IMG/VR virus record: IMGVR_UViG_3300009103_000007
Coordinates: 57,042 to 121,041 of that record
DNA from: a virus
Length of the DNA stretch: 64,000 nt
Direction: 5' to 3' (one strand)
Shown piece after piece: positions 262-60,300 of this stretch (its first letter is position 1; the number at the start of each line of letters is the position of its first letter). The position numbers were made by a program, and so were the translations under genes. The notes under the pieces are model-generated. The model worked only from the letters and a program-made list of their open reading frames with translations. It was not told where the DNA came from and made no database searches.

Positions 262-2924
262 TGGCCGTAAAAAGATATACTGCAAGCAAAGACAATACTG
301 TTACGAATTCCTATAAATTTAATTTAACTTCGAGGGCTTATAGCTCGAATATGGGGAGTTCTGATATAATGGAGATATATTCCATATTTGGGCAGGCCAA
401 CTCTTCTTCATTGGAAAAAACACGTATTTTGGTAGACTTCCCCATAGAAGAGATACACAAAGATCGCTTAGCCTCCACAATACCGCGTTCCGGATCGGTT
501 AAGTTTTACATGGTGTTGACGAATGCTGAACATGGCCAAAGCACACCAGAAAAATATACAATTTCAGCAATTCCGATTTTAAGAGAGTGGGATGAGGGAT
601 ACGGCCTTGACATGGAGTCTTTTTTAGATGAGGGAGCAAGCAACTGGCTTTCAGCTAGTGACGGCAATCTGTGGCACACACAGGGGGGAGACTACAGAGA
701 CTACCATATTAATCCATACACAGCAGTGCCAAACGAATATACGCAGTATTTAAAATCCGGTATCGAAAATATAGAGATGGATGTAACCCACATAGTGGAA
801 GAATGGATCTCTGGGCAAGCAAATGATATGCCAAGTGCTACATCAAAAATTGTTTTTACTAATGATATCAGTAGGTTCTCTGGATCAACGTTAACACTTT
901 ATTCTCACGAAGGCCAGCAGGGTATCTTTAAATTTACTCGCGGAAATGGCGGAACTACCGTTTCAGCTGGCGAGCCTACCGGCTCATCAGGAAATACTCA
1001 CTATGTCCCCACAGGATCTAACGTTTCGGAATTAATAACGAACTTATATGATTCTGTGGTATCAGCTTTTTCTAGTAAAATATACGGACAAGTAGAGACA
1101 GGAAACAGATCGATGGAACTCACACAATCTTCAGGTGGGTTTTTTGGAAACACTGTCATAACTGCATCCGTTCATCAAACTAGCTCAATTACAATTTCAG
1201 CTGGCAATATAGCGGATGGTGATAGGTTTGAAATAAGATTTGCCGGCTTGAACCTTACTAGTAAGTTTTATTCATTTACAGCTTCTGGCGACGCCGGCAC
1301 ATACAATTTTGATAAAGGCGCCTCAAACGTGGCCGCAGCAACAAATCTATATACGAAGATAAAGAGCACCGCAGAAGTTGCTAACTATATGGAGCCATCC
1401 AACCCATCGAACGGTGTAGTGGTGTTAAAAATGTTTAAACCAGGCCCAGTTTACGGATCCGGTAGCGTATCATTTAGGTTGAGATCCGGTGGCACAATCC
1501 CTGCCTCGCGCGTAGAGATAAACGGAATTAGTAATGAGGTCGATTCAAATATTAATCAGATCAATTTTAATCCACCGAGTATATATCAAAGTCTGCCGCC
1601 GGTATTTACTGGTGGTGAATCAGCGCCATCTAATGGACTTCTTTTAAAGCTATCTGGATCTTATGAAGCGGGGTCGCTAAAGAGATCTTTTTATACGAAG
1701 AAATTTTTTGCAAGAGGTTCTCAGTATTTCTTTCACAGGCCTAGACTTGAAGCGCGCTGGGATTCGTCCATGAAAGATGATAGGGGTTCTGTGTATAAAT
1801 CAAGCAGTCTGGCAGAAGAAGCTGATAATTTGAATTCGATTTTCCTGTATAATAGACAAAGGGGTGGTTTGACTGACCTTCCAAATACTTCCTCTTATCT
1901 GCTTGCGCAATTGGTAACATCTTCTACGGGAGGCACTCCTGAAACTCTCAGTAAAGGAGGAGGAGTTTCTCCTGGCGCTTTAACATATATAACTGCAAGC
2001 AGGATGGATAAGGGTGTATATCGAGCACAGTTTGCATATCCTGGGAATTCAGCGACGTTATATGATATGTGGTACCGCGGCGAAAAGAAAACAAAAGCAA
2101 CAGCAACACTTTCTGTGACAGAGTCTCCAACGGCCGGGAACACAATAACCATAATAGACAACAGCGAAACACCAGTAAGTAAAACATATATTGCCCATCA
2201 GGATGGCAGCCTTTCTGATCTTCATTTTGATGTTGATGGCAGCCAGCAGACTGTAGCTTTGGCGATTAAAGCAGCGATCGAATCTTCGGGAGGCCACAAC
2301 GGCACAATACTTGTTTCAGATCCCGTCAACACAACGGGTAATACTTGGGCAATTACTCTAACTCAGAATGTCGAGGGCCCTACCGGAAATACAACAATTA
2401 CAAGCAACGTGACAAATCTTGATGCCGGCTCAGGAGTCGCAAAGAACGGCGAATTTTCTGGGGGAGCGGTTCCGATAACTGCACTTGGGATAACTGGATC
2501 TCCGTTTACCATAAGAAAAATGGAGCACGATTTTTACCACCATACACCCTCATACTTGACAAAGATAATAAACCTCAAACCGTCTTACAACAGCAACGAG
2601 AGGGTAACTTTTAGAGTTTTTACGAGAGATAAAAATTGGGCACCCAACGTTTACAGCAAAGCAACAAACAAAGTCCCAATTTCCAATATTAGAGACGGGT
2701 ATTATAAACTTAAGAGAGTGGCTGATGACTTGACAGTAATACCATACTCTACGGGAAGTGTGCCTAGTTATTCTTCCATGTCTTATGATTTGAGTGGTAG
2801 TTATTTTGATTTAGATATGTCTTTATTGGAGTCTGGATATCTTTACGAAATTAGTTTCCTTTACAGGTTCGGTGGAGATTATGTTGAACAAAAGGAAAAA
2901 TTTAAGTTCAGAGTAGAAGCATGA
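261..2924 (+). CDS. Virion structural protein with DNRLRE-like N-terminus and inserted GNT domains
   Basis: 887 residues. The N-terminus (about 10-205) has the pattern KDNTVTNSYKFNLT, NMGSSDIMEIYSIFGQ, then EWDEGYGLDMESF and W/GGDY elements. This resembles DNRLRE/adhesin-type beta-sandwich modules found in marine T4-like structural proteins. Residues about 218-308 and 611-735 each end in the signature LTQxxxGxxGNTxI (LTQSSGGFFGNTVI and LTQNVEGPTGNTTI), followed in the second by FSGG. A related but weaker unit covers about 310-450 (ending FTGGE). The C-terminal 90 residues look like another beta domain. There is no signal peptide or membrane segment. It starts in the TAATG overlap with the upstream gene and its stop overlaps the next ATG (ATGA, 2921). 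A fibre or baseplate-peripheral role is inferred from position and composition. Confidence 0.7.
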   Translation: MAVKRYTASKDNTVTNSYKFNLTSRAYSSNMGSSDIMEIYSIFGQANSSSLEKTRILVDFPIEEIHKDRLASTIPRSGSVKFYMVLTNAEHGQSTPEKYTISAIPILREWDEGYGLDMESFLDEGASNWLSASDGNLWHTQGGDYRDYHINPYTAVPNEYTQYLKSGIENIEMDVTHIVEEWISGQANDMPSATSKIVFTNDISRFSGSTLTLYSHEGQQGIFKFTRGNGGTTVSAGEPTGSSGNTHYVPTGSNVSELITNLYDSVVSAFSSKIYGQVETGNRSMELTQSSGGFFGNTVITASVHQTSSITISAGNIADGDRFEIRFAGLNLTSKFYSFTASGDAGTYNFDKGASNVAAATNLYTKIKSTAEVANYMEPSNPSNGVVVLKMFKPGPVYGSGSVSFRLRSGGTIPASRVEINGISNEVDSNINQINFNPPSIYQSLPPVFTGGESAPSNGLLLKLSGSYEAGSLKRSFYTKKFFARGSQYFFHRPRLEARWDSSMKDDRGSVYKSSSLAEEADNLNSIFLYNRQRGGLTDLPNTSSYLLAQLVTSSTGGTPETLSKGGGVSPGALTYITASRMDKGVYRAQFAYPGNSATLYDMWYRGEKKTKATATLSVTESPTAGNTITIIDNSETPVSKTYIAHQDGSLSDLHFDVDGSQQTVALAIKAAIESSGGHNGTILVSDPVNTTGNTWAITLTQNVEGPTGNTTITSNVTNLDAGSGVAKNGEFSGGAVPITALGITGSPFTIRKMEHDFYHHTPSYLTKIINLKPSYNSNERVTFRVFTRDKNWAPNVYSKATNKVPISNIRDGYYKLKRVADDLTVIPYSTGSVPSYSSMSYDLSGSYFDLDMSLLESGYLYEISFLYRFGGDYVEQKEKFKFRVEA

Positions 2925-5900
2925 CAAATTATAGAGATAAATATCGGAATCGCCCATCCCGCAAACTTACTGAATTTGATTCAACCGAAAGGAAGAATAT
3001 TTTTTTCAATAAGCGAGGAGAAAACATACTCGCCAATAAAGATATTGATGATATAACACCACTGGATGCTGAATCTGAAAGATTTATAAGAGCGTTCATT
3101 AAGAAAAAGACAAGATATGTTCCAGAAATGGATCATAACGATCCATCGACGTTTGCTTTTTATGGCTCGGCCGAAAAATATTATGAAGACTCAATTTCTC
3201 GCATATATGATACATATCCATATGATGGGTCCAAAGCAGAACGTTTAGAATGGTTCTTAAGCTCTTCTTATTTAGACATTTATATGTTTGAGCACGAGTA
3301 CCCAAAGAGTACCGGATATGTTAAACTTTCTCCTGAAGGTTGGGGGTTGAAGGAGGCGTCTGATAGTAAGTATGGAAAGCCTGCTAATCTGCAATATATA
3401 TATTTTAACGGCGGCCCACACAAAAACAACATATATAATGCTGCTAAAAATAGAGAAAGTAATTTAAAAATTGATGGAGCAAAAGGAAACACTGTAGAAT
3501 TTTGGCTAAAAAAGAAAGCGTACGTATCTTCCACATTGACAACGCGGGAAGTGTTGTTCGATGTGCACGCCAGTAGAATTACCGCCTCTACTGACAATGA
3601 TTATGCACGCTTTAGAGTAGAGCTTGATCAATCTGTTACTTCGGGTAGTCCTTTTCGGGTTACTTATTTGTCTGGAGCAGTAGGGTTCGATTCGGAACTT
3701 ATTGGCAAGAATATCACCAAGGCCTCGGTGGCTGATGATTCTTGGCACCACTATGCTATAACGGTCAAGCACTCTGGATCTTCTGGCCTGTGCGCCAAGC
3801 TTTATGTCGACGGCGCGCTCGAAGATGTGAAAAAGCAAGAAATAACTTCTTTTGGATCCGTGGATCGCCATCTTGTGGGCACCGTTGGTGCTTTGGTTGC
3901 TGAAGATGGCACCGCCGGCGGCCTTGGATGGGGGAAGTTATCCGGATCACTAGACGAATTTAGGTATTGGAAAGAAGAAAGGTCCTCGAAACAGATAGGC
4001 AGATATTGGTATAGCCCCGTAGCTGGAGGAACAGACAAAGATCACTCCAACGCTTCCTTGGGTTTATACTATAAGTTCAACGAAGGTCTTACATCACCTA
4101 TCCGCGACAGGACAATATTAGATTATTCCGGCCGGATTTCTAATGGTAAGTTTGTTGGCTATACTTCGTCTTGCAGATCCACATCTTCAGCAATAACTGA
4201 AGCTTCAGTTATATCCGAATCTGGCTTTGTGGAAAAGGGCGACCCAATCGTTAACAAAGAAAACACACAAGTTATAGCACTGCAAGAGAATTACTCTAAA
4301 AAAGGCAGTTCACATGATAGATCAAACCTCTCTTCGATGCAGAATACTATACCCGCCTACATTACTGAATCCGGCGGTCCATTGTTCCAGGAATTGCTGC
4401 AGGTTGTATCCTCTGCTTTTGACGATATTTATATAAAAATAAAACTTTTACCAAAAATAAAAGATTACACTTATCATGACTTTTTTAACAAAAAGGGCAC
4501 ATCTAAGGTATTAAGGGACAACAACTTTTTACTTGGATGTGAATCTTCTGAGGATTTCGAATTTGTTGGCAGCCATATAAAACCATGGATAAGCTACATC
4601 TTGGAACATTTTGGGCTTGTTTCTAGAAATGTTTTTGCAAATGTTGAAGTATTTGAACATTTTTCTAATAGAGCCGAGAAAGTCACTTACGAGCAGCAGC
4701 TTCATGAAGTAAAGAATGTAATTTTATCCAACATACACAGAAACCTCCCACTCTTGTATAAAACAAAAGGAACGGAACAATCCTTCAGGAACTTGATAAG
4801 GTGCTTTGGTGTGGATGATGAGTTGGTGCGACTTAATGTTTACGCTAATAACGAAGAGTACAAAATAAGTAACAATGCTACGTATTCTATTTTGAAACCC
4901 AAGAGTGTCGACTTCACAGATAAGGATTACTTGGGTACCATTTATCCTATTGCTGCCGCAAGTGACGAGAGAAGCTATATAACTGCCTCCTCTGGACAGA
5001 TTCCAATCACCGTGGAGGGTAATTTTATTTTTCAAGAAGGCAAAGACGAAACTCAAAGCTTTGAAAAGACCTCCCTATTTGGAATGTATTCGGTAGAAGG
5101 AAAACAAACATCCAGCGATTTATCTTGGGCCAGCCCATCGTCTGGCTCATTTCAGGTATATGCAAGCAAATATAAAAAGCACGGAAACCGCGCTCAATTT
5201 GTTCTAGAGAGCGCTTCAGATTTATTTGAAACGGTAACTTCTTCATATTTTCCAGATGTTTATGATGGTAGTCATTGGAATATCTCTGTTAGGATGGGGA
5301 AATACTCCGATTTAAAATATGATGTTGCTGCTAGTTCATCGGTAGGTACACACGCTGTTGAATTTGCGGGATACAATTACGATCTAGACGTTCTTAAACA
5401 TAGTTTTTACGTTACAAAAAGCATTGCAGCAACAGATTATGAGGCTTTCTGCAAAAGCAACATGGCGCCATATCTTGGAGCCCAGAGAACAAACTTTTCT
5501 GGATCGAGTATCACCCCGGCTGATTCCCGTGCCCTCTCGTTTAATGTTTGGCACGACAAGCTGTCGGAACTTGAACTGAAGGAGCATGCGAAAAATCCAC
5601 TGTCTTATGGCCGACAGGACCCACAGTTCGTTTCTAATTTTGATGTTGGTAAGAACCTCTCAGGTCAAGATTCTTTAGTCCTTAGGTGGCAATTTTCAGA
5701 CATTACAGCATCTTCTGGCAATGGTGAATTATCTGTGGTGGATTATACCAGCGGGTCATTATATAGATCGACAAGTGCCGGGTATAAATATCCTGGTAAG
5801 GGATTTGGTTTTGCATCCACGACAGGCTCCATAAGACAAGAATTCCTTCCAGTAACAAAATATGCAGGAATAGATAACGTCTACACTAGCGATAGGGTTA

Positions 5901-8900
5901 AAATAAGAACTATTGATTCTACTGCTTACGAGGCAGACTCTAGACCAATTACTTATTATTTTACATTTGAGAAGAGCATGTATCAGGCGATATCAGAGGA
6001 GATGATGAATTTCTTTTCTGGAGTTAAGGGTCTGAACAATTTGTTGGGCGACCCTATCAACAAATATAGGGAAAACTACAAACTTCTTGGAAAGCTTAGG
6101 CAAAGATTTTTTGAAAAAGTTGAATCGGATATTGAGTTTGAAAGATATATTCAATATTACAGATGGATAGATGATTCTTTATCAAATTTCTTAAATCAGC
6201 TTACACCATTATCGTCCGAGTTTTCGGACAGAATAAGAGATATTGTAGAGAGTCATGTTCTGGAGAGAAACAAATACCAACACAAATTTCCAACCTTAGA
6301 ACCAAAAGATGGAGATTTAGAAGCTCATGTTATGGGTATCAACGAACTATTATATGATTGGGAATTCGGACATGCACCCCCAGTAGATACCGATAAGGTT
6401 ATAACACACAGACCGCTCATAAAAGCTGTTTATTTTCCGGGGGGATTCAATGCCAACCCAGGCGGCGATGATGAATTAATAATTGATAAAATTAGCAAAT
6501 CACTATCTTTTAATAATGCCCCGATAGCTCGCAACAGCCCAAGTACAATATCTAGTTATTCACTAGCGGGCACAGAATTTATAGTAGGCAATAGCCCGTC
6601 CGGAGACTGGTCAGGCCAAGCTGGAAAGCTAGCAACTTGGGATGCAGAAAATTCTGAATGGGATTTTTCCGTGAACCCATATGGTGAGAATCCTGGATAC
6701 AACGCGTTCACTATAAGTGCGTGGATAAATATTTCTTCATATCATGGAAACAACGCATCCGACAAGAGGATAATATTAGAGAAGAGTTACGAATATAAAT
6801 TAGCAATGGATTACAAGCTTTCCAGCGGCAATAATGTTCCGGACAAGTTGCAATTTTTCATATACGACCAGGGCACAAATGGTTACAGCAGCACCAATCG
6901 TATGCAGTTGCTATCATCGACTGCAGCTGCCACAATGACTGATCATGAATTTCATCATGTTGTAGTCGTGGTGGACTCCACATCTGGCGATAAAATAAGG
7001 CTATATTTAGATGGCACACAGATTACTTTAGATTCAGATACTACGGTCACCACATCGGGCGCGGGAGTCACCAACATGCGCGCCGGCTCAGGCAAACTAA
7101 AGTTTGGCGAAGATATGGATTATGGTCATGACTATTTGGCAGATACAGTATTTTTCAACAAAGCACTCAACTCGGCCGAGATAGAAGAGTTATATAATTC
7201 GGGAGATCTAATGGAAGTCTCGGAACACTCTGCTTATGATAATGTAATATCGTGGTGGAAGATGGGCGAGGGGGACGCCACCGGCGCTGCTGGAGTGAGG
7301 GATAGCGTCGGCTCTCATCACGGAACACTCCAAAATGAAGGAACGATAGTCCAATATTCTTCCGGAGAAAGCCCAAATACAGTCTTGGCGAAATACGGAG
7401 ATGGGTCATTTAACGGCGGCACAGTAAACTTCTATTATGACTGGGATAAAGAGCAAATAGTCAGAGAAACCATAAAGGTCGCATCAGAAAAGAAAAGTTG
7501 TTTTTGGTGGCAAGAAAGGGCCGAGAGAAATCTTATAAACGTTTTGGGCATGTCTTCCAGCGTCGATAACACTAGGGAGGTTATAAAACTTAGAGGAAAC
7601 ACTGTGGTCAGCGGATCAACTTACGCAATAAGAAAATTGTCGCGACCATATAAAATTTCTCTAGATATGCAGAAGTCATATAAGGGTGGTGGAAACCACA
7701 AGGCAAATAAAACCAAAGATCTCTACAAAGTTGTGAATTATGATGAGAGCAACGAATTAATTATAAGGTCTGAAGATATAGGGGTTTTCAAAGAATGCGG
7801 GGACATCAAGGAGCCTGCCGCAAAGAAGTCATATTTCGCGAAAGTTGATCTTGCTGGTGCAGATGATTATTCAGATACTGATGCATCAATGGTCCTTCCC
7901 TTTACATTGATGTCTTCTTCTGTTGGTACAGATTTTAGTAACTTTAAACAAAATCTACAAATCACCAACAACCATCATGATGGCATGGGTGCTTCGGATG
8001 AAATATCTATAAGAAGTTCTTTCGCCGCGGCCCATGTGGGGGGCATGCCTCACCGGCACGTAGCATTTAACAATAATTTTCAAGGGCGCCGAGCCATCGC
8101 CATTGTTAATTTTACTGGCCAAACAAATCAGGGGGGAGAATCAGTTGACCTCACTCCACGCGGCGGCACAAGAGAACGTTATAGGGAGGGGGTAGAGTGG
8201 TCGAAAGTAAACGGAAACGCCGCCGCCTCTGCATTAAATTTGTCTAATGCCATCAACGTATCTAGTAACTTTGAAGCCCGCATCGATCCGACTGACTCTA
8301 CCAAGATATTGATAACATCACTTCGCCCGGGTAATTTGGGTAATAAAGACGAAATAGTCTTCAATAACGGCGGTGGATCTTCAGCCATGTGGACAATACA
8401 AAAATTTTCTTCAGGTTTGTTCCAAGATCGCCCAGAGGCATATCATTTAACTGGGGCTGATAATGGTAGCTGGCTGAAGCTCAAGAAAGTTGATCTTGTA
8501 AATGCTCGCTCGCAGTTTTATAGAGATTTTGCCGCAAACACATTTTACAACGTTAAGAATATAAAGTATAATACGTCTTCTGCGTTGATAGGAAACTACG
8601 ACAAAGACTATCAAATTGTTATGACGACCGGTAGGCGCTCAAATAATGGATATCTTTTGGACTTGACAGCGTCAGCTTATCCGGCTAACCCTTCGTGGTC
8701 TTGGCCAATAAGCGGAGTAATAGACCATGCGATAGTAGAGCGCCCTCGGCAAAGTCACGTTATAACAAGTCGATTTTCGACAGTGGGTGGTGAATCTGCT
8801 AGTCCGCACACTAGGGATATGGAAACAGACGAATATTCAATTTATTCTACTTTAAATTATAAGAATGCAATCATCCGTCGGGCCCTGAATGAGCTTCACA

Positions 8901-11900
8901 GGGAGCGCTCAAATCAGTTTGGATTCCGTCTTGGCAGCGCAGATTCGGGTTCGCATACAGTTGGCGTCCCATCTCCATTAAACCATGCTTCGGTTCATAT
9001 GACTAACAGAAACCCTCGCCACGCGCTGAGGTACGACAAAGTTAAGGATTTTAATACCAAGGTGATTAAGTTCGACGGAACTAGTGATTACTTTGATATA
9101 AGTGCGACTAGACTTATCTTTAAAGATAGTGCAGGCTCTTCATTTTTTGCTTGGATAAAACATCCCGAAGTTACTCAGGTTTATTCTCACGCCCTTCTAG
9201 CTATCAATGGCCCCACAGGTAACGACAACCCGCTGATATTTGGTTTATCCGGCACAGGGTTTTCCGCGGCCGAAGAAGGCCACCCAATGTGGTGGGACGA
9301 TGCGACCGGCACGCCAATTCGCTACCTGCCAGCCCCTAGTTCTTCGAAGGCCAGAATTGATGATGACAAATGGCATTTGGTTGGGTTTGTTTATAATTCC
9401 GCCGGAAACATGGCTACCATATACGTAGATGGAGTTCAATATGATGAACCGTTTGTAGTTTCTAGTCTTACCAGCGTGATAGCCGCTAATGACTACGTCT
9501 CGATAGGGACAGAATTCGACGCCAGTTCCGCGGGAACCCCCGGCAACTGGGCTAAGGGTTACGTGTCAAATGTGTCCATTTGGAGTACAGCGTTAAGTAA
9601 TGACCAAGTAGCTGAATTATATACTGATGGATATGCTGAGAGATCTAATTTTTGGGAAGGATATAAAACTGGTCCGGCCAACCTACTTCACCATAGTGCC
9701 GCAAAACACTTAGCGGCATGGTATCGCTTTGGTGATGGTTATGACGAATCGACACCCGCAAACAAGGATATGTTGGGCGGAGATAATAATAGTGACGCAG
9801 GTAATAGGATCTATGATATGAGTCCTGGCACCAAATATCATGCAACTCCGATGGGGACATTCGCCGCTAGTGCGATGCTTGACGCTGAAGGCTTTCCGGG
9901 GCGCACTGGCCCCGCTCCAAAGTTTGATAACTTTTTTGTAAACCATCCAATACCTCAGTCCGAGTTTCAATACGCATGGATAACAGCAAGTATTGACAAG
10001 AGTAAAACCGTATACGATTTCGTAGAGAGTAATGCCGGCTTTGGATATCAACACAATTTTTCGATTACAGATTCTGTTACGGGAGAATACTTGAAATCAA
10101 AAGAATCGATACCGTTTATTACAATAAGCGAGGTTGGGAGTCATCACGGCATATATGCCGCCAGTGATCCCGACACGGAGGTCCCTCTTACTTTTGGACT
10201 GTCCTTGGTAGGCAGCGCCGCCGGCATTGTGGCCGACGATGATAGGTACGTAATGACTGACTTTGTGGGAATGAACACCATTGTTTATGAACCCGTGAAC
10301 CCAACGACGAACACGCTTGGTCATAATTCACTTGAAATGGTAAATACTGCTGGCCAGACTGTGATTCAGGATATCAATTATATTAATTCTACCATCAATA
10401 ATACAGATTTGCCTTGGGAAGGGATGTATTCCCCGCCGGTCGTAACCGGTGATGATACTGTGGTACCGGAAGGCCTCGCGACCACGTTAAATGCAATCAT
10501 AAACAACCGCCAGGGCCCTTATGGTTGGCCGTCATGGAAGCAGCTTCGAGGCGCCTCACACCCCGTGGCGCGCTCTCACAGAAAAGCAAATATACACTCA
10601 TTCGTCGTACGCGGAGGCGTTACACCAAATGAGGTAAATATTAACTCACTGCAGCTTTACGAGGTAGATGCCTTTTCTAATGAATATAATTCGAAAACAA
10701 ATATAGTCTATCCAGAAAACTACAATGGCCAACGGAATGAAGAATTCAATGTAGTCAAGATGACAAATGCTCGCTCTAACGCAAATTATATTGATATACC
10801 TGTTACGGTTAGATTTAATCCGGTGTGTTTTTCTGAACACGCAAATCGAATGCCGGGTACCCTCGGCGGCCCCCACAGACTTAGTTTTTGGGAAGCCAAA
10901 TCTCGACTAGAGAAGGCTAGCCAAAATCAAGAGCAATCGATTTGGGATCTTGATGAATATATTTATGACTTGTGGGCTTCTAGTGCTGGCACTGGCCTTT
11001 CCGGCCAATCACCGGAAGGGGACCCTTTATTGTTAGAACGCTCCGACGCTCAGTTTTCCTCGCGCGCATGGGACATAACAGCTACGAAGGTTTCTTATCA
11101 AAATGATGTAACTACCTATGCTAACAAGAAAATAACTGAAAAATTGGAGATTGATGAATATAGGCAAGGGGCTGCCTTAAATCTTATTGGCCAAGTTGGG
11201 CGCTTTAGTGAAGCTGCCTCGTCGGAGATAAATTATATTGAAACTATTTATCCCAGAGAAGAGAACACTTTTACAAAAAATGCAAGAACAAGAGAGAAGT
11301 TTAAATTCACTTGGGTTTCTGGCAGCTCTAATAGAACTAAAATATTTGAAAATTCCAATAATTATGGTTCATATATAGCTATCTCGTCATCGTCACCATA
11401 TTATTATTTATTTCCAGAGATTTCTTCAAAAGGGAATATTGGGTATAGGGATCACAACGGCCTTAACATTGAAGCGGTAGACATGGTGGGTGATGAGACA
11501 GCAACAGGATTTGGAACACTTCATAGGATAACTTCGTCAGTGTGGCTTCTTGATTCGCGAAAAGACTTCTCTAAACCACCATTAAATTTGACGGCCTCTT
11601 ATTTCAGAGGGAGGCATGGTCTAAGAACCGAGTCAGATAGAAATGACTTTTTAGCAAACAGAGATCAAGGCAAAAGAGGGGAAGGTACACTACAAAATGA
11701 TTACAACATTTTCGGATTGGGATATAATGCGCTCCATGGCTATACCCCGCCGGCGCCTTTATATAACAGAAGGATACCACAGTTTGTGCAAATTTCTAAT
11801 GCACAGTGCACAATTACAGCAGCTAACAGTTGGGGCTCCGGCTGGCCAGACACCTACCACGAACGCACAGTAACAATCAAGGATGCTGATGGCAATTCAG

Positions 11901-14900
11901 TTATTTTCAAGGTAAATAAGAACACAGCTTATACCACCACGGGGGGTGCTCTTGGGGTAGGCAATGGGACAGTGTCAATACCCCTTCAAGGTGCCGTCGA
12001 CACTGGTAAAGCAATTACTGGCATAAGGAATGCACTCTTGTTCGCCGCGTCTTCGGACATCGCACAGTATACTCTGAATATTACGGTGTCAGATATAGAG
12101 GAATCTAAGAGAATTATTTTGACACAAACAACCCCCGGCACGATAGGCAACACTACACTTACTTTTTCTCACGGCGGAAGCAACCCCCTGAGTAGTGCAT
12201 ATACTTTTGCTGACTCTTCGTTCACAAAAGGCGCCGACGCTGAATACCTCTCTGGCGAAGCAAAGTGGGAAACGGGCCAGCAAGCGGACAGGTACCCATC
12301 TAAGGATAGCTATTATCTGCAAACCAATGCAGTAAAAGCTATCGCGCAAGACCATTCTCTAATACCTGAATTCAGAATAAGTGATTTTGTAGAAGATGTG
12401 GTAACTAACGAGAATGGTGATTTCTTGAGCATAAGTGACAAATTTTTATCCCTAACTGGCGCCCTATATGCAAACTCAGAAGGTGAAATAGAATCAGACA
12501 CAAAGTTCTTTAAAACATATTCAACTAGCGAATTTATGAAGTATTTTGATATTGTTTCTGAAAACTGCATAGAGCATGATTTTTTGCCTCGTCGCTTTAC
12601 TCTAAAATGTAATGCTGCCTTGCAATTCGTTCCCTATTACGGCTTCTATCCAGCAGAAAGGACTCAACAATTGGCAGAACTTTTTGGAAGGGGATACATG
12701 CCGGACGACTCTTGGTCAGTGAACTTTACACCGGGAACAGGAATAGCAAACAAAAGCCATTATTTGAAAAAGAAAATTTCAGGCTCTCTAGCTCGTGCTG
12801 TAAAGCCATTATTTTCGCCGGGCGTGCTGTACAATTCAATTAAATCTGGTATAGCAGTTGATTATCCAATCTTTAAAACAGATATCAGCCAAGGTTTGGG
12901 TAGCGCTACAAAGGGGGTAAAGTATCTAACTTCAACCTCTGGGCCGTTAAAAAAGTGGCATCACCTATCCGCTTCGGCCGGCCAGTCCGGAATCACAGGA
13001 TCCTTGATTAACGGCACACACATGGCGGGATATCGTAACTTTACAGGATCAATAGCTACTATGCGCGCCGGGATTCCTCGTCTTTCTGGCTCTGTTGAGA
13101 GCCCTTCTGTTGGCGGCGTTAGCTATAGGGTTAAGTTTGAGGATTTGCTAAATCCTGAGAACCTGTTTGAAAAATCAATGTATAATAGCGAACCTCATCC
13201 AAGTGCTAGTGCTTATTTTGGAGGCAGGGAATGGTCGAAAATAAATGACTATCCATATAAGTTCGGCACAATAAACAAGAATGACGACCACTTCGGCCGC
13301 CTAGGCATCGCAACGTTCAGCAGATCTAAGGGTCTCGCCACTTCATTGGCGCCATATAAAATGGCAATGAACAATTTCGCAGCAGAAACAGTAAATTTCT
13401 TCTTAAAAGACAGCAAAGTGGCTACCTTGACATCCAAGGAAGTAAATTTTCAGCTGGATGCGGATGTTATATATAAGACAAGGATATACCTGAAGAATGT
13501 AGATTTAATGATGTACGATAGGCATTCTGCATTTGGTCCCCCAGTTGATGAGGGGGAGGGGTTAGAGGTAACTATAACAACTGCTGCCGGCGGCAAGCGC
13601 GCCTATGGAGGCAACATGAGATCTCATGTTGTGGATGGTGGCACTCTAGCGTGGCAAACTGATGCTGTTATGACAACACTCCCTGCTATTAAAATAAATT
13701 TCTTAAATGAAGACGGTACGGAAACTGAAAAAAAGATTCAGTTTTACAACGCTGCTTCAACTCCGGATACACTTGAAACTGCTGATATTTATAGCATTAA
13801 GTTGTGTGATGAAAACAAGAATGTTATATCTGATGAGAGTTTGGCTACCAAAATTATTTTGGGATTAGGTCACCTTGGGTTTGTTGATATGTCTTCCATG
13901 GGCGCCCACATTTTTAATACATCGCAAGCGAATCCTGGAGCAGGCGCCAATAGTGGAACTTTTAGCGTTACGAAGGTGAATGGTTCCGACGGTACGAACA
14001 CTTTTTATATTTTATCAGCCGATGCGATCGCTGCAGGGGCTAATGCTCACCTATTTCAGTATTTAGATGATTTGACGGGCGGCACGAACGTAACTCTTGT
14101 ACAGAGAGAGACGGAAACTAGAAATCATATGCATGGTTATGCTCCGTTTACTCCTCCTTTCTTAGACAAAAACTCTGAGCCATATATGGAAATTTCCTAT
14201 CGGCCGCAAAGTACAGACGCAGAAGATCCTAGAATTGTGAATGTAACGTTAGATAAGATTCACAGAGGCATGACCGTTGAGTATAAGAATTTCCATCCAG
14301 ATAACGAGCCAAACAACAAGTTGAATAATACTAACTTTCGAGAATCGATGAATTTGGGAGCGAGTCTTGATTTTAAAGAATTTGTCCGCTATTACGATAG
14401 TGGGAACCACAACGAGGAGATTTTAGCCAAACGTCGATGGGTGATACAAACAAAATGGGAAACACCCGTTTTGGATTTCAAGAATGCGGAAAAGACAGCT
14501 TTAAGGCTCGACACGATGACAACTGAAAAAATTTCCACTTCACCGTGGAAAGTAAGAAACTGGGATTCATACTATACGATTGAACACTCTTCTGATATTC
14601 CGTATTTAACGGGGTCGACCGGCATGTGGCACCAAAATGGCGTACGCACCTCCACTTCGGGAAATGGGTATTATATGCAAGTATCTGATATTCCTGGCCT
14701 TGATCAGGATCACCAACTGGGGAGACATCTTGGCTGGACCAACGGCGCCGGAAGAACAACCGAGTCGGGTATCACACCAGTCGGCCGAATATCTCAAAAG
14801 AAGGAAATAAGTGAAGCAGTTGTAGCTATACCTTATACTGTTGATTCGGAAACCTGTGAGGTTAAGTTTTTTAATTTAGAATTATCATCTCGAATGCGCG

Positions 14901-46473: not shown

Positions 46474-46532
46474 GAAAGATGCAGCCGAGTAGGTTGCGAA
46501 TTAATCTTGATGTAATTAAGGAGAAAATAATT

Positions 46533-46937: not shown

Positions 46938-46957
46938 AATTTTAAGGAGATAATATA

Positions 46958-47920: not shown

Positions 47921-47931
47921 AAGGAATACCA

Positions 47932-48312: not shown

Positions 48313-48374
48313 GCACTTTACGGTCCCGTTTACTAATTAGTTTTAGATAATATAACTTAAGCGAGGATCCATGA

Positions 48375-50033
48375 ATGGCTTTACCTACACTAACACCTGC
48401 TAGCACAGTAAGTGCAGTTACGCTTCCAGCAACTGGTTCTCACGATGATGTGCATGACCATGTGCCGTATAAAATATATTCTGATGAGACGTCTCCACTA
48501 TATTCACACCAATTTGTTTCTGGAGCAGTCGATCAAGTATCATATGTATATAAGAAGCTTGGAGGCGATGTTCTAGATATAGAATTGACCCCAGGGAATG
48601 TGTATGCAGCATATGAGGAGTCTGTATTAGAATATTCTTATTTAATAAATGTTCATCAAGCGACAAATATCCTTTCGGATGCTTTGGGCGGGACAACTGG
48701 CTCTTTTGATCATAAAGGAATATTGGAAACTGGGGCCCTTTCTTCTTCTTTGGGGAAAAATCACGTTGCACTTAAATATCCAAAATTTGAATATGGGATG
48801 ACTCGACGCATCGCTGATGGCGTTGCATCGGAAGTGGGCCTGAATGCATCAGTGCAATATTCCGGCTCTTTTGTGGTGACACCTAATCAGCAAGATTATG
48901 ATCTACAGAAGATCTTCGACTCCGCAGTCAACGTTAAAGCAACGGGATCACTGGCGTTTTCAGAGACAGTCAATTCTGGCGGCCGCATTGCACCTGCAAC
49001 CGGGGAGACTTTTACTCTTGTTGACGCCCTCGGAAAACAACAAATTTTTACTTTCAACAGAGAAAACAACGATGTTGGAGTATCGATCGGCATTGCAGCT
49101 GCCTCGGCTGCCGCCGACGGCAATAAAGCGCCTGCAATAGCTGCCCAAGTGATAGAATCGATAAACAGTGTTTCTAAGATAAGAATAGCTGCAATAGTTG
49201 ACGAAGCCGACAATAAGAAAGTAAACTTGTTTCAAAATGATGGCGGATCCGAGGGTAATACAAAAATTATAGATACGTCTAATGCGAATATGACGCCGAC
49301 TGATTTTGCCAACGGCGAAACAAATTACAGATATGGAGAAAAAATAAAGGGAAAGAAGATTTTAATAAAAAAAGTCTATTACAAGACTCCACATGCTATG
49401 TGGAGATTCTATGGGTACTATGGTGGGCTGAATGTTGTAGGAAATTTACATAATTATGGCCAATTTTCAGATGACTCTACTTTCCAGCTTGTGCCTACGT
49501 GGCACAACAAGGCGCAAGCACTTGCGTTTGAAGATGCAATTTACACAAGAATGTCTCATTTCTCTTATGAGTTGAGGAACAATACGTTGAGATTGTTCCC
49601 TAATCCAGCAAACTTCTCGCCGAGTCGTATGTGGGTTGAATTCAGTATTCCGGAGGATGTTTGGGATAATGATGATAAGGCCACTAGCGGCGTAAATAAC
49701 ATGAACACGCTTCCTATGGGAAACTTACCATTTGCTAATATTAATGCTATTGGCAAGCAATGGATCCGCCGATTTGCTTTGGCCTTGAGTAAAGAAGTCC
49801 TCGGCCAAGTTAGAAGTAAGTTTGGCTCTGTGCCAATTCCTGGAGATAGTGTTACTTTAAATGGAGGTGATCTCATAACACAAGCAAAAGATGAGCAGGA
49901 AAAACTAAGAACAGAATTGAAGGAAACTTTAGCAGAGCTAACTTATGCAAAGATGGCAGAGACCGACTCTGCTATGCTTGAAAATAGCCAAAAGGTTTTA
50001 GAAAGAATACCAAATTATATATTTGTCGGATGA
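48375..50033 (+). CDS. Neck protein, gp13-like, with inserted GNT domain
   Basis: 552 residues, much longer than T4 gp13 (309). The C-terminal 250 residues carry the gp13-like signature: helix IGKQWIRRFALALSKEVLGQ followed by VRSKFGSVPIPGDSVTLNGG, then a coiled region ending PNYIFVG. The upstream half has VYAAYEESVLEYSYLIN and KYPKFEYGMTRRIAD blocks. Residues about 202-316 are a GNT domain (GETFTLVDALGKQQIFTFN, LFQNDGGSEGNTKI), splitting the neck protein. Neck proteins close the portal after packaging and join the tail. It is followed after ten bases by the gp14-like gene, as in T4. Confidence 0.72.
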   Translation: MALPTLTPASTVSAVTLPATGSHDDVHDHVPYKIYSDETSPLYSHQFVSGAVDQVSYVYKKLGGDVLDIELTPGNVYAAYEESVLEYSYLINVHQATNILSDALGGTTGSFDHKGILETGALSSSLGKNHVALKYPKFEYGMTRRIADGVASEVGLNASVQYSGSFVVTPNQQDYDLQKIFDSAVNVKATGSLAFSETVNSGGRIAPATGETFTLVDALGKQQIFTFNRENNDVGVSIGIAAASAAADGNKAPAIAAQVIESINSVSKIRIAAIVDEADNKKVNLFQNDGGSEGNTKIIDTSNANMTPTDFANGETNYRYGEKIKGKKILIKKVYYKTPHAMWRFYGYYGGLNVVGNLHNYGQFSDDSTFQLVPTWHNKAQALAFEDAIYTRMSHFSYELRNNTLRLFPNPANFSPSRMWVEFSIPEDVWDNDDKATSGVNNMNTLPMGNLPFANINAIGKQWIRRFALALSKEVLGQVRSKFGSVPIPGDSVTLNGGDLITQAKDEQEKLRTELKETLAELTYAKMAETDSAMLENSQKVLERIPNYIFVG

Positions 50034-50043
50034 GGATTGAGTT

Positions 50044-51748: not shown

Positions 51749-51763
51749 TAAAAAGGAGAAAAC

Positions 51764-52129: not shown

Positions 52130-52237
52130 GCTTCGCTTCTTTTGAGTTATCGGAAAGCCATAGGGTTAAAAAGCAGTATTTCCCGTTCGATCTGACTACT
52201 TACTTATGAAGAGAAAACAAGCGAAGAGGGTTTTAAG

Positions 52238-52459: not shown

Positions 52460-52475
52460 TCAAAGGAGAAAGCCT

Positions 52476-52865: not shown

Positions 52866-52962
52866 TAAAGACACTTTAATCACTCCATTTAATCACATTA
52901 TATAATTATTTAGTTTTCTGTTGTTAATCGAAAAAACCTAATCAAAACAGGAGAAAAATATA

Positions 52963-55900
52963 ATGGCTAGGACAAAGATTAATTCAACCCAGATGGTGGT
53001 AACAGCAACCGTGTCCCCACAATCATCTGATGGTGCCGCTCTAGGTACCGGCAGTGCGATGTGGTCAGACCTTTTTCTGGCATCCGCCGGGGTGATAAAT
53101 TTTAATAATGGTGATATGACCATGACTCATGGTAGCAACTTGCTTACCATATCTGGTGGTAACACCCGAGTTGATCGTTTAGAGATTGATAGTGCAAACG
53201 ACTACATTGATGTCGATACCGACCTCAAACTTATTGCGGCCGCAGACATTGTTCTCGACCCTGCAGGCGGCGATGTCAAAGCTGACGGCAACTTTTTGCC
53301 AAACTCTTCAGATGGTGGAACCCTAGGTTCTGCCTCCCTTATGTGGTCTGATGCTTTCTTGGCATCTGGTGCAGTAGTTAATTTTAATAATGGTGATATA
53401 ACGTTGACTCACTCATCAAATGCTTTGACTGTCGCCGGCGGTACGCTTGCAACTGCAGCTCTTACCACTTCTACTATCACTGCTAGTGGAATTATTAAGA
53501 CTGACGACACAACTGAAGCTACCTCAACAACCGACGGTTCCTTGCAGACCGACGGCGGCTTGAGCGTTGCAAAGAGCGCTGTTATTGGTGACGATCTTGA
53601 CCTCCTGTCTGATGGTGCAATTTTCGCCATGGGCGCAGGCCAAGATGTAAAAATCACTCATGATGGTGGAACAGGAGCCACACTCGCTTCAGCTGGTGCT
53701 TTCGTCATTGACGGTGCAGCTGCAGTTACAGTAGATTCGGACGCTGCATTAACAGTTGGTGGTGCTACAATCGACATGGATGCCGACGGTGGTGCCGTTG
53801 CTATTGATGGTACTGGTGGTGTGAATCTTGGTACTGCAACAAGTGGTGTTGCGATCTCGATAGGACACAGTACTTCGGAAACTACTGTTAACGACAATCT
53901 GAATACTACTGGCCGCATTCTTGTTAATGATTCGACCGATGCTACATCAGCCACTGACGGCTCTTTACAGACCGATGGTGGACTGAGTGTGGTCAAGGAT
54001 GCTATTATTGGTAATGATATGTACCTTTTGAGTGATAGCTCTGTTTTGGGTCTGGGTGCAGGTAAGGATGCCACTCTGACGCATGATGGGACAACTGGTG
54101 TAACCCTTGCAGCAAATCCCATTACGCTGGATTCTGGCGGGGCCCTCAACTTAGATTCAGATACTGGTGATATTGTCTTCAAAGATGGTGGAGCAGACCA
54201 GTTGGCTCTTGATCTGGATGGTACTTCTGGCGAAGTTATCATGCAGCTTAAGGTCGACTCCGACGACTTCGTCTTCAAGCAGTACGATGGCACCGAAGTT
54301 TTTCGTGTAGAAGATGACGGCGGCTTCGACATTGCCGGCGGCGCAGGTTCATCTGGTGTGACCATTTCGGCTGCTGGCCAGCTGACTGCTGATGGTCGAA
54401 TTATTGTCGATGATGCAACTGAGGCTACCTCAACAACTGACGGCTCTTTACAGACCGATGGTGGCTTGAGTGTCGCTAAGAGTGCTGTTATCGGCGATGA
54501 TCTTGATCTTTTATCTGATGGTGCTATTTTCGCCATGGGTGCAGGTCAGGATGTAACAATTACGCATGATGGCGGCACTGGAGCGACTCTCGCTTCCGCC
54601 GGCGCATTTGTAATTGACGGCGCTGCAGCTGTAACTGTGGACTCAGATGCTGCTTTGACTATTGGAGGTGCTTCTATCGATATGGACGCCGACGGAGGTG
54701 CAGTTGCTATTGATGGTACAGGTGGACTGAACCTCGCTACAGCAACCAGCGGTGTGGCAATTTCCATTGGCCACTCAACCTCAGAGACCACTGTTAATGA
54801 TAATCTCACCGTTACTGGTGATCTTACCGTCAACGGTGCAACAACGACCGTCTCTACAACCAACATGGTTGTTGAGGATAAGTTTATAGAGCTAGGCAAT
54901 GGAACAAGCGGATCACCTTCTGGTGACGCCGGTTTTGTTATTGAGCGTGGCTCATCTGACAACGTTGCTCTGATTTGGGACGAGTCAGCTGACGAGTTCT
55001 TTTTGGGCTCTGGCTCTGTCACGGGTGCAAGTTCAGGCAACCTTAGTTTGACTGCAGCAAACCTGCAAGCTGCTAGTATCCGCGGCTCCAAACTAGAGAT
55101 CGATGGCGCGTCAGATTATATTGATGTGGACACTGATCTTAAGATTGTGGCTGCAGCCGACATTGTTCTTAGTCCTGGCGGCAACAACGTTGTCCCAGAT
55201 GCTAGTGACGGTGCCGCTCTTGGGTCTGCTAGCTTGATGTGGTCTGACCTCTTTGTAGCTTCGGGCGCTGTTATTAATTTTAATAACGGTGACGTGACAA
55301 TGACTCACAGCTCTAATCTTCTGGCAATTGCTGGCGGTAATACTCGTGTTGAGAGACTCGAAATTGATAGTGCAAGTGACTACATTGATATGTCTGGATC
55401 AGATCTTCACATTGTTGCTGCAGCTGATGTTGTTGTGACTGGCGATCTTGTTCCTGCTGCTGATGACACCTATGACCTAGGTACCACCAGTGCTGCGTGG
55501 CAAGATCTTCACCTTGAGGGTGACGTTTTGCTAACTGACGCAGGAAAGATGGAGACTGCAGCCGGCGATCTCACGATCTCTTCTGCTGCTGCCGACGTTG
55601 TTCTTGATGCTGCTGCCGATGTCGTTATTGATGCTGCAGGCGGAAATGTCGAGTTCAAAGACGCAGGTACTCTACAGTTGTCTTTAGATATGGACGGCAC
55701 CTCTGGCGCCCAAATATTGAAGCTTGGTGTGGATAGTGATGATCTTGTTTTTCAGCAATATGATGGAAATGAGGTGATCCGTATTGCGGACGATAGAAGG
55801 TTGTATTTCTACGATAAGGGCGGTGAATACCTTTACGGCGATGGAGATGATTTTTATGCTATTTCGGGAGGAGACATTATTCTTGACCCGGGCGGCAATA

Positions 55901-57252
55901 ATGTGCTTCCTGGTTCGGATAGCGCTGACTCTCTTGGTTCGACTGCTGGCACATCTACTATTGCAGATGATTTTGCGTCATATGTCGTATCAAGTGGTAC
56001 AGATTACAGTAGCACTACGACGATGGTTTCCTTCACGGGCATTTCATCTGAAATGGGCGATGTTCTGTCTGGGGACACCATTACATTAAGTGATGGCTCA
56101 AATACCTGGACTGCCACCACTGCTGGTGCCGCTTCAGCAACTTTGACCAAGGCTTCTGGCTTCGGTTCTATTCTGGCATCGACCGCTCTTGACAGTTCAA
56201 CTTCAGCAGTTTCGCCATATGGTGGAGGTTGGTCTGTCGCTCTTATGCAGGCAGTTGCAGGTGACACTTTAACTATCGGTAGTTGGAGTGCTACAGTCGC
56301 CTCAGCGCCTTCCTCTACTAGCGGCACCATTGGTGTTAGTAGCGCATCTGGCACAGCTTCGCCTAATGGTGGATTGGCTTGTACTCTTGTTGGTGATGCA
56401 ATTGCGGTCACGTCTGCTAGTGGAACTCTAGATGTTAGCGCAATGAACGGCGGCCAAACAGTTAGCGTCACTAGGGCCACTTCTGCTTTGGCTTGGGCCA
56501 ACCTCTATGTCGATAATATCGACTTGAATGGCCAAGGTAGCATCAGTATTGGTGGTACCGGCCGCATTGACCTTGACGCTGATGATGACACCTCTATTCG
56601 TGCTTCGGCCGACGACGTGATCACATTTGAAATTGGTGGAGCAGACGAGCTAGTTCTCGATGGCTCTTCATTGAGGCCGAATACCAGTGATGGTTTGGCG
56701 CTTGGTGATTCTGATCAGATGTGGTCGGATGCTTTCATGGCATCCGGAGCAGTCATCAACTTCAATAACGGGGATGTTACTTTGACACACGCCGCGAACA
56801 AGCTATCGCTGGCCGGTGGCTCACTAGAGTATTCTGAAACTACCAACTTGGCTATTGACTCTAATGATAGTACTCATTATTTCTTAGTGTTGGATAGTGA
56901 TGATAACCTCATGAAGAGGGAAGCGGTTAATGACTTTGTACAGCACATTACTGGCGCCGCTAGCACCAGAGGTGGCTTGTTACAACATCAAGGTAAATTG
57001 TTCATTCAGCCTGTGACTGATGTCTTTTTATCTGGTGGTTTGACACAAGGGTTGACAGCATCCCTTGGATCTGCAGCATTATCTGGGTCCGTTATGGTGT
57101 TCTTGAATGGTATGTTACAAACTCGTTCTGGTTCTGTTTCGGCGGCAACTTTTGACTATAGGTTTGACAGTATTACTGCTCCTACTAAGGTCTTGATGTC
57201 TTCGGCACTTGATTCAGACGATGTTCTTACCATCAGGTACATGAAGAAATAA
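52963..57252 (+). CDS. Repetitive fibre-like virion protein (1429 aa)
   Basis: Two repeat types alternate. Type A, about 45 residues (SDGAALGSASLMWSDLFLAS, then INFNNGDVTMTHSSNLL, GG), occurs at 53024, 53308, 55200 and 56690. Type B, about 130 residues (TDGSLQTDGGLSVAKSAVIG, LSDGAIF, THDGGTGATLASAGAFVIDG, STSETTVNDNL), occurs at 53511 and 54418, with a shorter degenerate copy at 53936. A VEDKFIELGNGTSGSPSGDA, WDESADEFFLGSG segment separates them. At about 55970-56490 a Ser/Thr-rich non-repeat region interrupts a type A unit. The C-terminus (VMVFLNGMLQTRS, DDVLTIRYMKK) resembles the LFVNG module of gp15. Beta-helix or beta-solenoid trimer is likely; it may be a tail or head fibre. It ends at two hairpins, the second a terminator. 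Confidence 0.65.
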   Translation: MARTKINSTQMVVTATVSPQSSDGAALGTGSAMWSDLFLASAGVINFNNGDMTMTHGSNLLTISGGNTRVDRLEIDSANDYIDVDTDLKLIAAADIVLDPAGGDVKADGNFLPNSSDGGTLGSASLMWSDAFLASGAVVNFNNGDITLTHSSNALTVAGGTLATAALTTSTITASGIIKTDDTTEATSTTDGSLQTDGGLSVAKSAVIGDDLDLLSDGAIFAMGAGQDVKITHDGGTGATLASAGAFVIDGAAAVTVDSDAALTVGGATIDMDADGGAVAIDGTGGVNLGTATSGVAISIGHSTSETTVNDNLNTTGRILVNDSTDATSATDGSLQTDGGLSVVKDAIIGNDMYLLSDSSVLGLGAGKDATLTHDGTTGVTLAANPITLDSGGALNLDSDTGDIVFKDGGADQLALDLDGTSGEVIMQLKVDSDDFVFKQYDGTEVFRVEDDGGFDIAGGAGSSGVTISAAGQLTADGRIIVDDATEATSTTDGSLQTDGGLSVAKSAVIGDDLDLLSDGAIFAMGAGQDVTITHDGGTGATLASAGAFVIDGAAAVTVDSDAALTIGGASIDMDADGGAVAIDGTGGLNLATATSGVAISIGHSTSETTVNDNLTVTGDLTVNGATTTVSTTNMVVEDKFIELGNGTSGSPSGDAGFVIERGSSDNVALIWDESADEFFLGSGSVTGASSGNLSLTAANLQAASIRGSKLEIDGASDYIDVDTDLKIVAAADIVLSPGGNNVVPDASDGAALGSASLMWSDLFVASGAVINFNNGDVTMTHSSNLLAIAGGNTRVERLEIDSASDYIDMSGSDLHIVAAADVVVTGDLVPAADDTYDLGTTSAAWQDLHLEGDVLLTDAGKMETAAGDLTISSAAADVVLDAAADVVIDAAGGNVEFKDAGTLQLSLDMDGTSGAQILKLGVDSDDLVFQQYDGNEVIRIADDRRLYFYDKGGEYLYGDGDDFYAISGGDIILDPGGNNVLPGSDSADSLGSTAGTSTIADDFASYVVSSGTDYSSTTTMVSFTGISSEMGDVLSGDTITLSDGSNTWTATTAGAASATLTKASGFGSILASTALDSSTSAVSPYGGGWSVALMQAVAGDTLTIGSWSATVASAPSSTSGTIGVSSASGTASPNGGLACTLVGDAIAVTSASGTLDVSAMNGGQTVSVTRATSALAWANLYVDNIDLNGQGSISIGGTGRIDLDADDDTSIRASADDVITFEIGGADELVLDGSSLRPNTSDGLALGDSDQMWSDAFMASGAVINFNNGDVTLTHAANKLSLAGGSLEYSETTNLAIDSNDSTHYFLVLDSDDNLMKREAVNDFVQHITGAASTRGGLLQHQGKLFIQPVTDVFLSGGLTQGLTASLGSAALSGSVMVFLNGMLQTRSGSVSAATFDYRFDSITAPTKVLMSSALDSDDVLTIRYMKK
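53511..54807 (+). repeat. Large type-B repeat copies with conserved protein and divergent DNA
   Basis: The first (about 53511-53900) and third (about 54418-54807) copies differ at only a handful of the roughly 130 amino acids, for instance K/T, V/I, T/S and V/L changes. Their codons differ at many synonymous positions. The middle copy (about 53936-54100) is diverged and truncated. Direct repeats in protein but not in DNA identity. Confidence 0.75.
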
Positions 57253-57304
57253 AGCTTATTATCATGTAAGCTTAGGGGGGGAGCACACGCTCCCCCCTTT
57301 TTTT
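57252..57304 (+). terminator. Double hairpin ending the fibre gene; strong terminator
   Basis: The first hairpin has arms AAGCTTA (57252-57258) and TAAGCTT (57267-57273). The second, GGGGGGAGC (57276-57284) and GCTCCCCCC (57289-57297) around ACAC, is followed by T residues from 57298 to 57304, a classic rho-independent terminator. The remaining gap to the sheath gene (57305-57389) is AT-rich with ACTAATTAATTAA and holds no gene. Confidence 0.9.
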
Positions 57305-57389
57305 ATTTTATTCTTTTTGGGTATTTTTAAACTAATTAATTAAGTAAAATACAATTTTATTATCTTACCATTTTAGGAGATTCAAGAAT

Positions 57390-60300
57390 ATGGCAGCTAG
57401 AAAATTTAAGTTTGTTTCGCCTGGCGTCTTTTTAAAGGAAATTGACAATTCGCAGCTTCCAAAATTCCCGGGGCCCGTGGGGCCCGCCATCATAGGGCGC
57501 GCAAGAAAGGGCCCTGCGATGAAGCCAATACAGGTTAATTCATATGCGGAGTTTATAGATATATTTGGCGAACCGATACCGGGCAATCAGGGCGACGATG
57601 TTTGGAGAGATGGAAACGGCTTGCTAGCTCCCGCTTATGGTCCATATGCTGCAAAAGCATACCTGTCAGCTGACATTGAGTCACCGATTACTTATATAAG
57701 ATTGTTGGGTATACAGGGCGATGACGCTGTTGAGGCTTCGTCTGCTCATGAAGGTGGCACCGCCACAAATCCGAGTTATGGCGAATCACCGGAAGCAGGG
57801 TGGCACATGAACAAGGCTTATGGTATCTTTTTGATACCTTCGGGCTCCTCTCTTGGCGGAGTCGGAGCCGCCACGGGGATGCATGCAAATTCGAATCTGC
57901 AACTAGCAAGTCGTACTGCATCTTTGGCAGCAATTGTATATGGTGAATCCGATTATGAGTTATCAATGGTGGGGAGGAGTTCTACTAGTGTTATGTTAGG
58001 GTCTTCTTCGCACGCATATGATTATCGCACAGTCGACGGCGCCAGAGGGGGCGAAGCGTTCCAGATGTCGGGAGACAAGATGACGCTTCAAATGAAGAAA
58101 GCTACAGCTGGTTCTAAAAATGGTTTTCTTAGAGATATTTCCCTAAATAAGGGAAAGAATTACATAAGAGAGGTCATCAATTCAAATCCAGTAGCTGTGA
58201 ACAATCACGATGATAAGGGCATTTCGTATACTCGTGCGGGAACTTTATCTGAAATCTTTTTTGTGGGACAAACGTTTGAACAGGAATATTCAAGAGTAAA
58301 AGAGAGTATTGGCGATCCCGATGGCGTTTCTGCATTTGTGCTCCCTCTCAAGACTTCTGAAAGTTCAGACATGGCAGATTATAGCCATGAAATGTCTTCA
58401 GCTAGAACGGGTTGGTGCTTTTCGCAGGACACGGGTAACCCCAGCTTCTATGATTACAATAATATGTCCAAGCTATTTAGGCTCATTTCGCTTCATGAGG
58501 GAGAATCCGCCTCGAAAGAGTTGATCGTCGCAGTTGAGGATGTGAGGGTTGCATCGCAGGGCGCTGCAGATCCTTATGGCACTTTTACGATATCTGTCAA
58601 GCGCGCGTATGGTGGCAAAATTGTAACTGTAGAGTCGTTTCCGGGTTGCAACTTGAACCCAAGCTCTCAGAATTATCTTGCTCGACAGGTGGGCGATCAG
58701 TATGTTGGGTGGGATCCGATTGAAAAAAGAAACAAGATTTATGGAAATTATCCGAATCGCTCCATCTATATACGAGCAGAAATGGACAAGACTGTTGATG
58801 TTGGGGCAGAGTCTCCCGACAAAGTGCCATTTGGCTATTTTGGACCAATTAAACCGAAAGATATCACACATCAGGTTAGTGGAGCAGTTGATCGAGTGGA
58901 TGGCTGGGCTGCAGGCTCGATAAGAAACATGTTTCCGGAGAAGACTCCAACTGGCGGAAGTAAAGCAAGTCTCCGTATTCAGTGGCCATCTCTTCGTACG
59001 GTAAAAAGCGGATCCCTTGATGGGTCAACCTATTTTGGAGCCTCAATGTACAAGATGGGGTCTAAGGGTGTTCAGTCAGATGAATTTGATGCTGGGACGA
59101 TCGATTATCTTCGGCCCCTTCCGGCATACCTTCGTAAAGATGAGATAGCGGGGACAACTTCTGCCAACAGTCAATATAGCTATATATTTAGTCTGGATGA
59201 GCTTGTGGTTTCTGGGTCTAACAATGATACTCTTGGGGATGCGAGCACCGCAAAGGTTGTTAGTGCTTATCATCAGTCTGGATCCCGACGACCAATCCCT
59301 ATAGCCGCTGCATCTGCAACTGTTGCAATTACCACCGCCACGGCCGCAGACCTTGACGGCGACAACATAACCCTATCCCTAACCTCAGCCGATGACCTGA
59401 ATGGCGGAACGACAACGAAAGTATATAGATTCAACAATGGGGGGGGTCAGGCCAATGGAGCATCTATTTCCGGAAACATAGTGAGAGTTAATGTTGGCGG
59501 CGCCGGCGATGACGACGCCATTGCACAAAAACTGAAAGAGGCAATTGAAGCTTCTGCCGGTCATGATGAGAAACTTACTGTTGTAAGAAGTAATGCTACT
59601 TTAACAATAACCCAAGCAGTTAACGGAGTCCAAGGGAATACGGTAATACCAGCTCCCGCCAATGGTGCTGCCAATAAATTTACAGTGAATGGAGGGATCA
59701 TCCAAACTGCCTTCTCAGGCGGCGCCAATGAAAAAATTTCCTATACTGCAGCTACAACTGCCGGAGGAGAAAAATATAACGGCTCCGTAGAGGCTTTAAC
59801 TGAGTTGGGCTTTGATAGATTCTGGATGCCTTTGGCCGGCGGCCATGATGGTGTTGATATCCGAGAGGCTGACCCATTCTGTAATCGTGTTTTAAACGCA
59901 GGTGCTACAGCTGGCGGTTCAAGTAACTCCTACGCATATGCAACTGTGGAAAGGGCGATAAGTTTACTTAGTGACCCCGAGGCTGTGGAGTGTAATGTTA
60001 TGGTTGCCCCTGGGGTCACCAATACGTCGCTTACAACCAAGCTGATACAAACATGTGAAGCCCGCGCCGACGCTCTGGGAATCATTGACCTGCCAGATAT
60101 TTATGTACCCCCTCATGAAGCTAAGTGTGATAATTTTGAGGCGCGCCTGCAGACTACTCCCCTTAAGTCCGCGAAAGCACTTAAATTGAGGGCATTGAAT
60201 TCTAGCTATGGTTGCGCATACTACCCTTGGGTTAAAATAAAGGACTCTGAGAACACGAGAGATGTGTGGGTGCCACCTTCTGTCATAGCGCTTGGTATTT

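Follow-up and report, generated by a model that had tools for sequence, protein, structure and literature searches.

Why should unrelated structural proteins of a single virus carry the same short sequence signature? In the window, by which we mean the 64,000 nucleotides of IMG/VR record IMGVR_UViG_3300009103_000007 analysed here, a sequence-only reading had noticed five copies of a pattern ending in GNT in four genes, and had proposed that they mark a domain shuffled among sheath, neck and fibre-type proteins, perhaps serving attachment to one shared target. Six-frame translation of the window returned five matches to Q-x3-G-x2-GNT, all in the places reported before. The same five, together with two weaker copies, were recovered with a profile made of 96 homologous units, none of them from the window (the outside-only profile). 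With this profile the five strong copies had E values from 1.5e-27 to 4e-12, the next-best score in the window that was not a copy was 4.3 bits, and the top score in 20 shuffled windows was 7 bits. A profile search of the entire 121 kb contig found the same seven modules and no others.

The modules are located in four proteins, all encoded on the + strand. Three are in an 887-residue protein (gene 261-2924): module 1 (801..1211; profile E 2e-19, outside-only 3e-13), the degenerate module 2 directly behind it (1170..1433; profile E 7e-7, outside-only 1.6e-6) and module 3 (2070..2471; profile E 2e-31). A dedicated scan for relatives of this protein found none, yet the module-bearing loci of other viruses described below contain members of its family. 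The 4277-residue protein (gene 2921-15754) has a strong module at 11834..12244 (profile E 1e-17, outside-only 4e-12) and a weak one at 8102..8422 (profile E 3e-7, outside-only 2.5e-5), the latter already suspected at 8060-8415; a further copy suspected in an insert of a 320-residue protein gave no score with the outside-only profile. The gp13-like neck protein (552 aa, 48375..50033; phrog_211 head-tail adaptor Ad2, 1.8e-11) carries a module at 48927..49328 (profile E 2e-21). In the gp18-like tail sheath (1152 aa, 57390..60848; phrog_23 tail sheath, 2.7e-70; Phage_sheath_1C, 2.9e-9) the module is at 59286..59732 (profile E 3e-25), just before a subtilisin-like domain and ahead of the PF04984/PF17482 match at residues 852-1144.

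Module 3 was modelled with AlphaFold using 101 homologues (pLDDT 89.5, pTM 0.85), and the model consisted of strands and a single helix at residues 63-75. By this model the GNT unit is an autonomously folding domain of about 120 residues, a beta structure with the helix between its halves. In the model of the whole neck protein, of too low a quality to position the insert in space (pLDDT 67.7, pTM 0.39), helix and strands of the insert succeeded each other as they do in the module. The consensus has T-rich strands, an A-x2-L-x2-A-I-N helix, LTQ-x3-G-x2-GNT-x-I and F-x-GG, with Q, G, G, N, T, F and G nearly invariant. The modules are rich in Thr, Ala, Gly and Ser and low in charge (charged residues 12%, as against 19% in the remainder of the host proteins), and conservation is limited to the Gly/Asn/Thr turns and the core. 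Neither a conserved surface patch hinting at a ligand nor a conserved charged cluster suggesting catalysis was seen in the modules. Taking into account the low charge and the confinement of conservation to turns and core, an enzymatic role is unlikely.

The insertion of the unit into neck and sheath was directly visible in alignments with a close relative, L003, which lacks the module in both proteins. The L003 neck has 0 residues opposite the 113-residue module and is 76% identical elsewhere; the L003 sheath has 0 residues opposite the 142-residue module at 60% identity elsewhere. In five more pairs of related sheaths 6-26 residues stood opposite the module, so that empty sites were found in seven relative pairs altogether. 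Core strands flank the neck insertion point, near residues 161-176 on one side and 330-335 on the other. These alignments bear on the simplest alternative, that normal segments of the gp13 or gp18 core had been mistaken for inserts. Simple sheaths such as that of Agrobacterium phage Milano do possess a homologous extension domain as a resident part, which is what such an explanation would expect, but a relative with 60-76% identity and nothing opposite the module in either protein, sister sheaths that differ by the module, and its occurrence in just 12 of 121 neck homologues (at about one site) leave this alternative very improbable. The unit is an insertion in neck and sheath, as had been proposed, and not part of the gp13/gp18 core.

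One neck homologue, L136 (4339-6066, +), has a GND-type unit at the same site (residues ~180-335; LTSSVAGTDGNDITI ... SGG). This form is intermediate, with the GNT module on one side and the GN-D/H motif found in simple sheaths on the other; the true superfamily extends beyond the GNT pattern. In L003 an 1832-residue protein with many near-identical repeats of ~50 residues (GLISGSGGIDIAGTADFGAAVNVQGALDVDGATTLDGLTVAEAAVFSST) is encoded upstream of the sheath (L003:4358-9856, +); the same place in the window is taken by a 1429-residue protein (52963-57252).

It had also been suggested that neck and sheath exceed their T4 counterparts in length because of such insertions. This holds for the neck, in which the module accounts for the excess over a near relative. 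For the sheath it is true in part only: the protein is ~490 residues longer than T4 gp18, and the module contributes only ~150 of these. Several hundred extra residues relative to T4 gp18, with no Pfam match, are found at residues ~100-640 of the window sheath. Further inserts beside the GNT module are likely in this protein, and also in the L132, L196 and L191 sheaths.

Among related sheaths the module occupies about seven sites (window-sheath core positions 156-191, 209, 251, 320, 504-528, 606 and 649-691), and both the conserved N-terminal part and the C-terminal sheath domain were free of it. A tree of 87 sheath cores showed a minimum of 15 switches between presence and absence on well-supported branches, and 24 changes were needed to explain the states of all sites; these counts are approximate, since divergent modules, e.g. 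that of L140, may score below the threshold, which does not affect the empty sites inspected directly. Gain and loss of the module are thus frequent among related sheaths. When relatives were selected by the neck protein only, at least one module was present in 13 of 44 contigs, most of which are fragments.

Similar units in other phages had been anticipated, and they proved to be widespread. In 216 loci we counted 345 modules in 236 reading frames, 59 of which contained two or more, and tandem arrays reached seven modules. Besides sheath and neck, the hosts fall into 66 other protein clusters, some of which are fragments that may belong together. Because the loci had been selected with a DNA pattern for the motif and through homology to sheath or neck, the numbers indicate breadth and not frequency. 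A podovirus tail tubular protein B related to those of Pelagibacter phages (L238:4440-7664, -) carries three modules; in the cultured Pelagibacter phage HTVC035P the corresponding site is occupied by an unrelated stretch of ~80 residues, with no module. The tail tubular protein B of L049 has one module, at a different site from L238. For tail-fibre, head-closure and Hoc-like (head-decoration) hosts the PHROG hints were weaker, and the module can be placed only tentatively in proteins of these kinds.

Strict matches of the DNA pattern numbered at least 120 in IMG/VR, and a single one was found in 257 Gb of prokaryote genomes. The latter (L133, NZMJ01000124.1, a MAG labelled Maricaulis) shares its contig with tape-measure and tail genes, so that the contig is probably of phage origin and was binned into the MAG; a prophage or cellular origin of the module was rejected on these counts. 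Among named phages, tblastn against 50,697 phage genomes gave no match, within the limits set by the low-complexity filter; the queries were two units, the consensus and a multi-module protein of 1003 residues. A literature search, mainly of open-access papers, returned no description of the family.

The shuffling among unrelated virion proteins that had been postulated was seen at the DNA level. A member of the 887-residue protein family (L073) and a member of the 4277-residue protein family (L077) were 88% identical in DNA over 399 nt, and the similarity stopped at the module borders. DNA similarity restricted to the module was likewise found between L044 and the tail protein of L049 (80% over 330 nt) and between two different genes of phage L307 (70% over 455 nt). 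GNT modules have thus been exchanged between unrelated proteins. Vertical descent is visible as well: when modules below 60% identity were compared, the best match belonged to the same host family in 80 of 273 cases as against 20 expected by chance, which indicates shuffling on top of inheritance.

The copies in the window reflect both processes. They are mutually ~20-30% alike, and modules of other phages are as similar to them as their siblings are, or more so. The nearest relatives of module 1 of the 887-residue protein are modules in the same position of the same family in other phages, showing that it was vertically inherited, and those of the neck module are in the same protein of other phages. 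The closest match of module 3 is in a protein of another family of another phage (48% identical), and the sheath module has about equally near relatives in several families. Given this low mutual similarity and the separate histories, a single ligand common to the five copies, as the sequence-only reading had envisaged, appears unlikely on sequence grounds.

What, then, could the module do for the particle? In the account that we favour, and to which we assign a probability of about 60 per cent, it is a sheath-related mobile surface domain providing weak multivalent adhesion, where homology, fold, insertion, multiple sites, gain and loss and exchange between proteins are observed and we infer exposure on this virion and adhesion. 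The domain is passed among phages by recombination at module borders and by tandem duplication, and would be retained in positions that leave assembly undisturbed, namely surface loops of the sheath, neck, tail-nozzle and fibre-type proteins. The likely benefit is weak multivalent adhesion to polymers of cell surfaces or particles, diversified by fast-changing loops; provided that the module is functional at all, we consider this benefit somewhat more probable than all others together. Indirect support for an external position of the modules on the virion encoded by the window comes from their homology to the Milano extension domain. In PMC9230969 additional sheath domains are taken to point outward from the tube, with a possible role in adhesion or stability, and the placement of the module outside the sheath core agrees with this as well as with the external Milano domain.

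Stability is the basis of a competing explanation, in which the module is a cementing domain whose contacts between subunits lend stability to the sheath in its extended state or to the joint of head and tail, with the host proteins using it independently. In Milano a disulfide between subunits involves Cys182 of the extension domain (PMC10811340), and tail stabilisation has been proposed for additional sheath domains (PMC9230969). Close relatives differ in the presence of the module, however, and one sheath offers about seven sites for it, so that cementing would require a new contact to arise at every one of them; the module also occurs in tail-fibre-like and nozzle proteins. We regard cementing as unlikely. 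A similarly low probability is given to the view that the copies share no function, and that a well-folding, tolerated piece is scattered by recombination with near-neutral gain and loss, or acts as a spacer in long proteins. The frequent gain and loss, the many unrelated hosts, the tandem arrays of up to seven and the failure to see a conserved surface patch would all fit such a view, but fold-defining residues are conserved across hundreds of copies, several phages retain the neck site and the first of the sites in the 887-residue protein, and each copy costs ~400 bp in compact marine phage genomes.

Whichever benefit applies, the insertion of a domain into essential virion proteins can be traced directly here, from the clean empty sites and from DNA matches confined to the module. 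With mapped sites that accept an insert of 120 residues, sheath and neck proteins are useful for display, and also for tests of the part that accessory surface domains play in marine phages.

Among known families, the closest relatives are domains of contractile sheaths. The top three matches of the family profile among all PDB chains were tail sheaths (Milano gp20, 9.5e-5; 7-7-1, 3.9e-4; a third sheath, 0.17), and the match on Milano gp20 covers residues 90-189, lying over its external sheath extension domain at residues 91-203 (PMC10811340). The likeness to the extension domain of the Milano (8fop) and 7-7-1 (9hz7) sheaths, which overlaps PF17481, is a significant profile match over most of the domain and includes the A-x2-I..AAI helix and the LT-x3-G-x2-GN turn; the GNT and F-x-GG signatures are kept only partly in Milano. 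This profile similarity makes the GNT unit a relative of the outer domain carried by simple contractile sheaths, by descent or through a common ancestor. None of 101 members matched PF17481 (Phage_sheath_domII) at E 0.01, a model that Milano itself reached only with 0.034; the unit is thus related to PF17481 and is not filed as a member of it. Neither Pfam nor PHROGs had a model for the module: at most 3 of the 101 members matched any PHROG, the best named one being tail sheath. In Milano and 7-7-1 the domain is a resident of one short sheath, with its external placement known by experiment in Milano, whereas the GNT unit has been added at many sites, those in non-sheath proteins included. The accessory sheath domains described by Evseev et al. 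2022 (PMC9230969) also lie between conserved N- and C-terminal core parts, as do all sheath GNT modules; the neck and fibre copies do not fit that feature. That survey covers sheaths only, and its accessible text does not name the GNT family, its mobility between proteins or its gain and loss.

By fold, the best solved match was the flagellar cap protein FliD, domains D2-D3 (Foldseek E 2.5e-3). Next came the sheaths of Mu and Milano and, further down, that of 7-7-1, and these sheath matches were weak (E 0.14-0.9). Predicted viral proteins in BFVD matched better than solved ones (down to E 1e-8) and included distant GNT copies in phages such as RcTitan. FliD D2-D3 has a similar succession of helix and strands and a Foldseek probability of 0.92-1.0, but its TM-score to the module is only 0.41-0.50 and FliD is a cellular flagellar protein. 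A flagellin hook IN motif was rejected, with no PF07196 match in the contig at E 10 or in the 101 members at E 0.01.

The textbook example of a promiscuous virion module is the phage Ig-like domain. Like the GNT unit, the phage Ig-like domains (Fraser 2006, as cited in PMC9230969 and PMC10385173; Hoc) are accessory domains of head, neck and tail proteins, variably present among relatives and found in tandem strings. They belong to a different sequence family, and the GNT unit has a central helix. An Ig-like identity was rejected since none of the 101 members matched an Ig or Big Pfam model at E 0.01, and an Ig beta-sandwich since the Foldseek probability was at most 0.2, the TM-score was at most 0.33 and the helix at 63-75 is in mid-domain. 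With more than 200 viral loci, the GNT unit is a second promiscuous virion module, distinct in sequence from the Ig-like one. The chances seem to us evenly balanced that it represents an unnamed, widespread family of promiscuous virion-surface domains, derived from a sheath extension and forming a counterpart of the Ig-like domains, that is exchanged horizontally among uncultured myo- and podoviruses and retunes the contacts of the whole particle, as in this one phage with copies in sheath, neck and fibre-type proteins.
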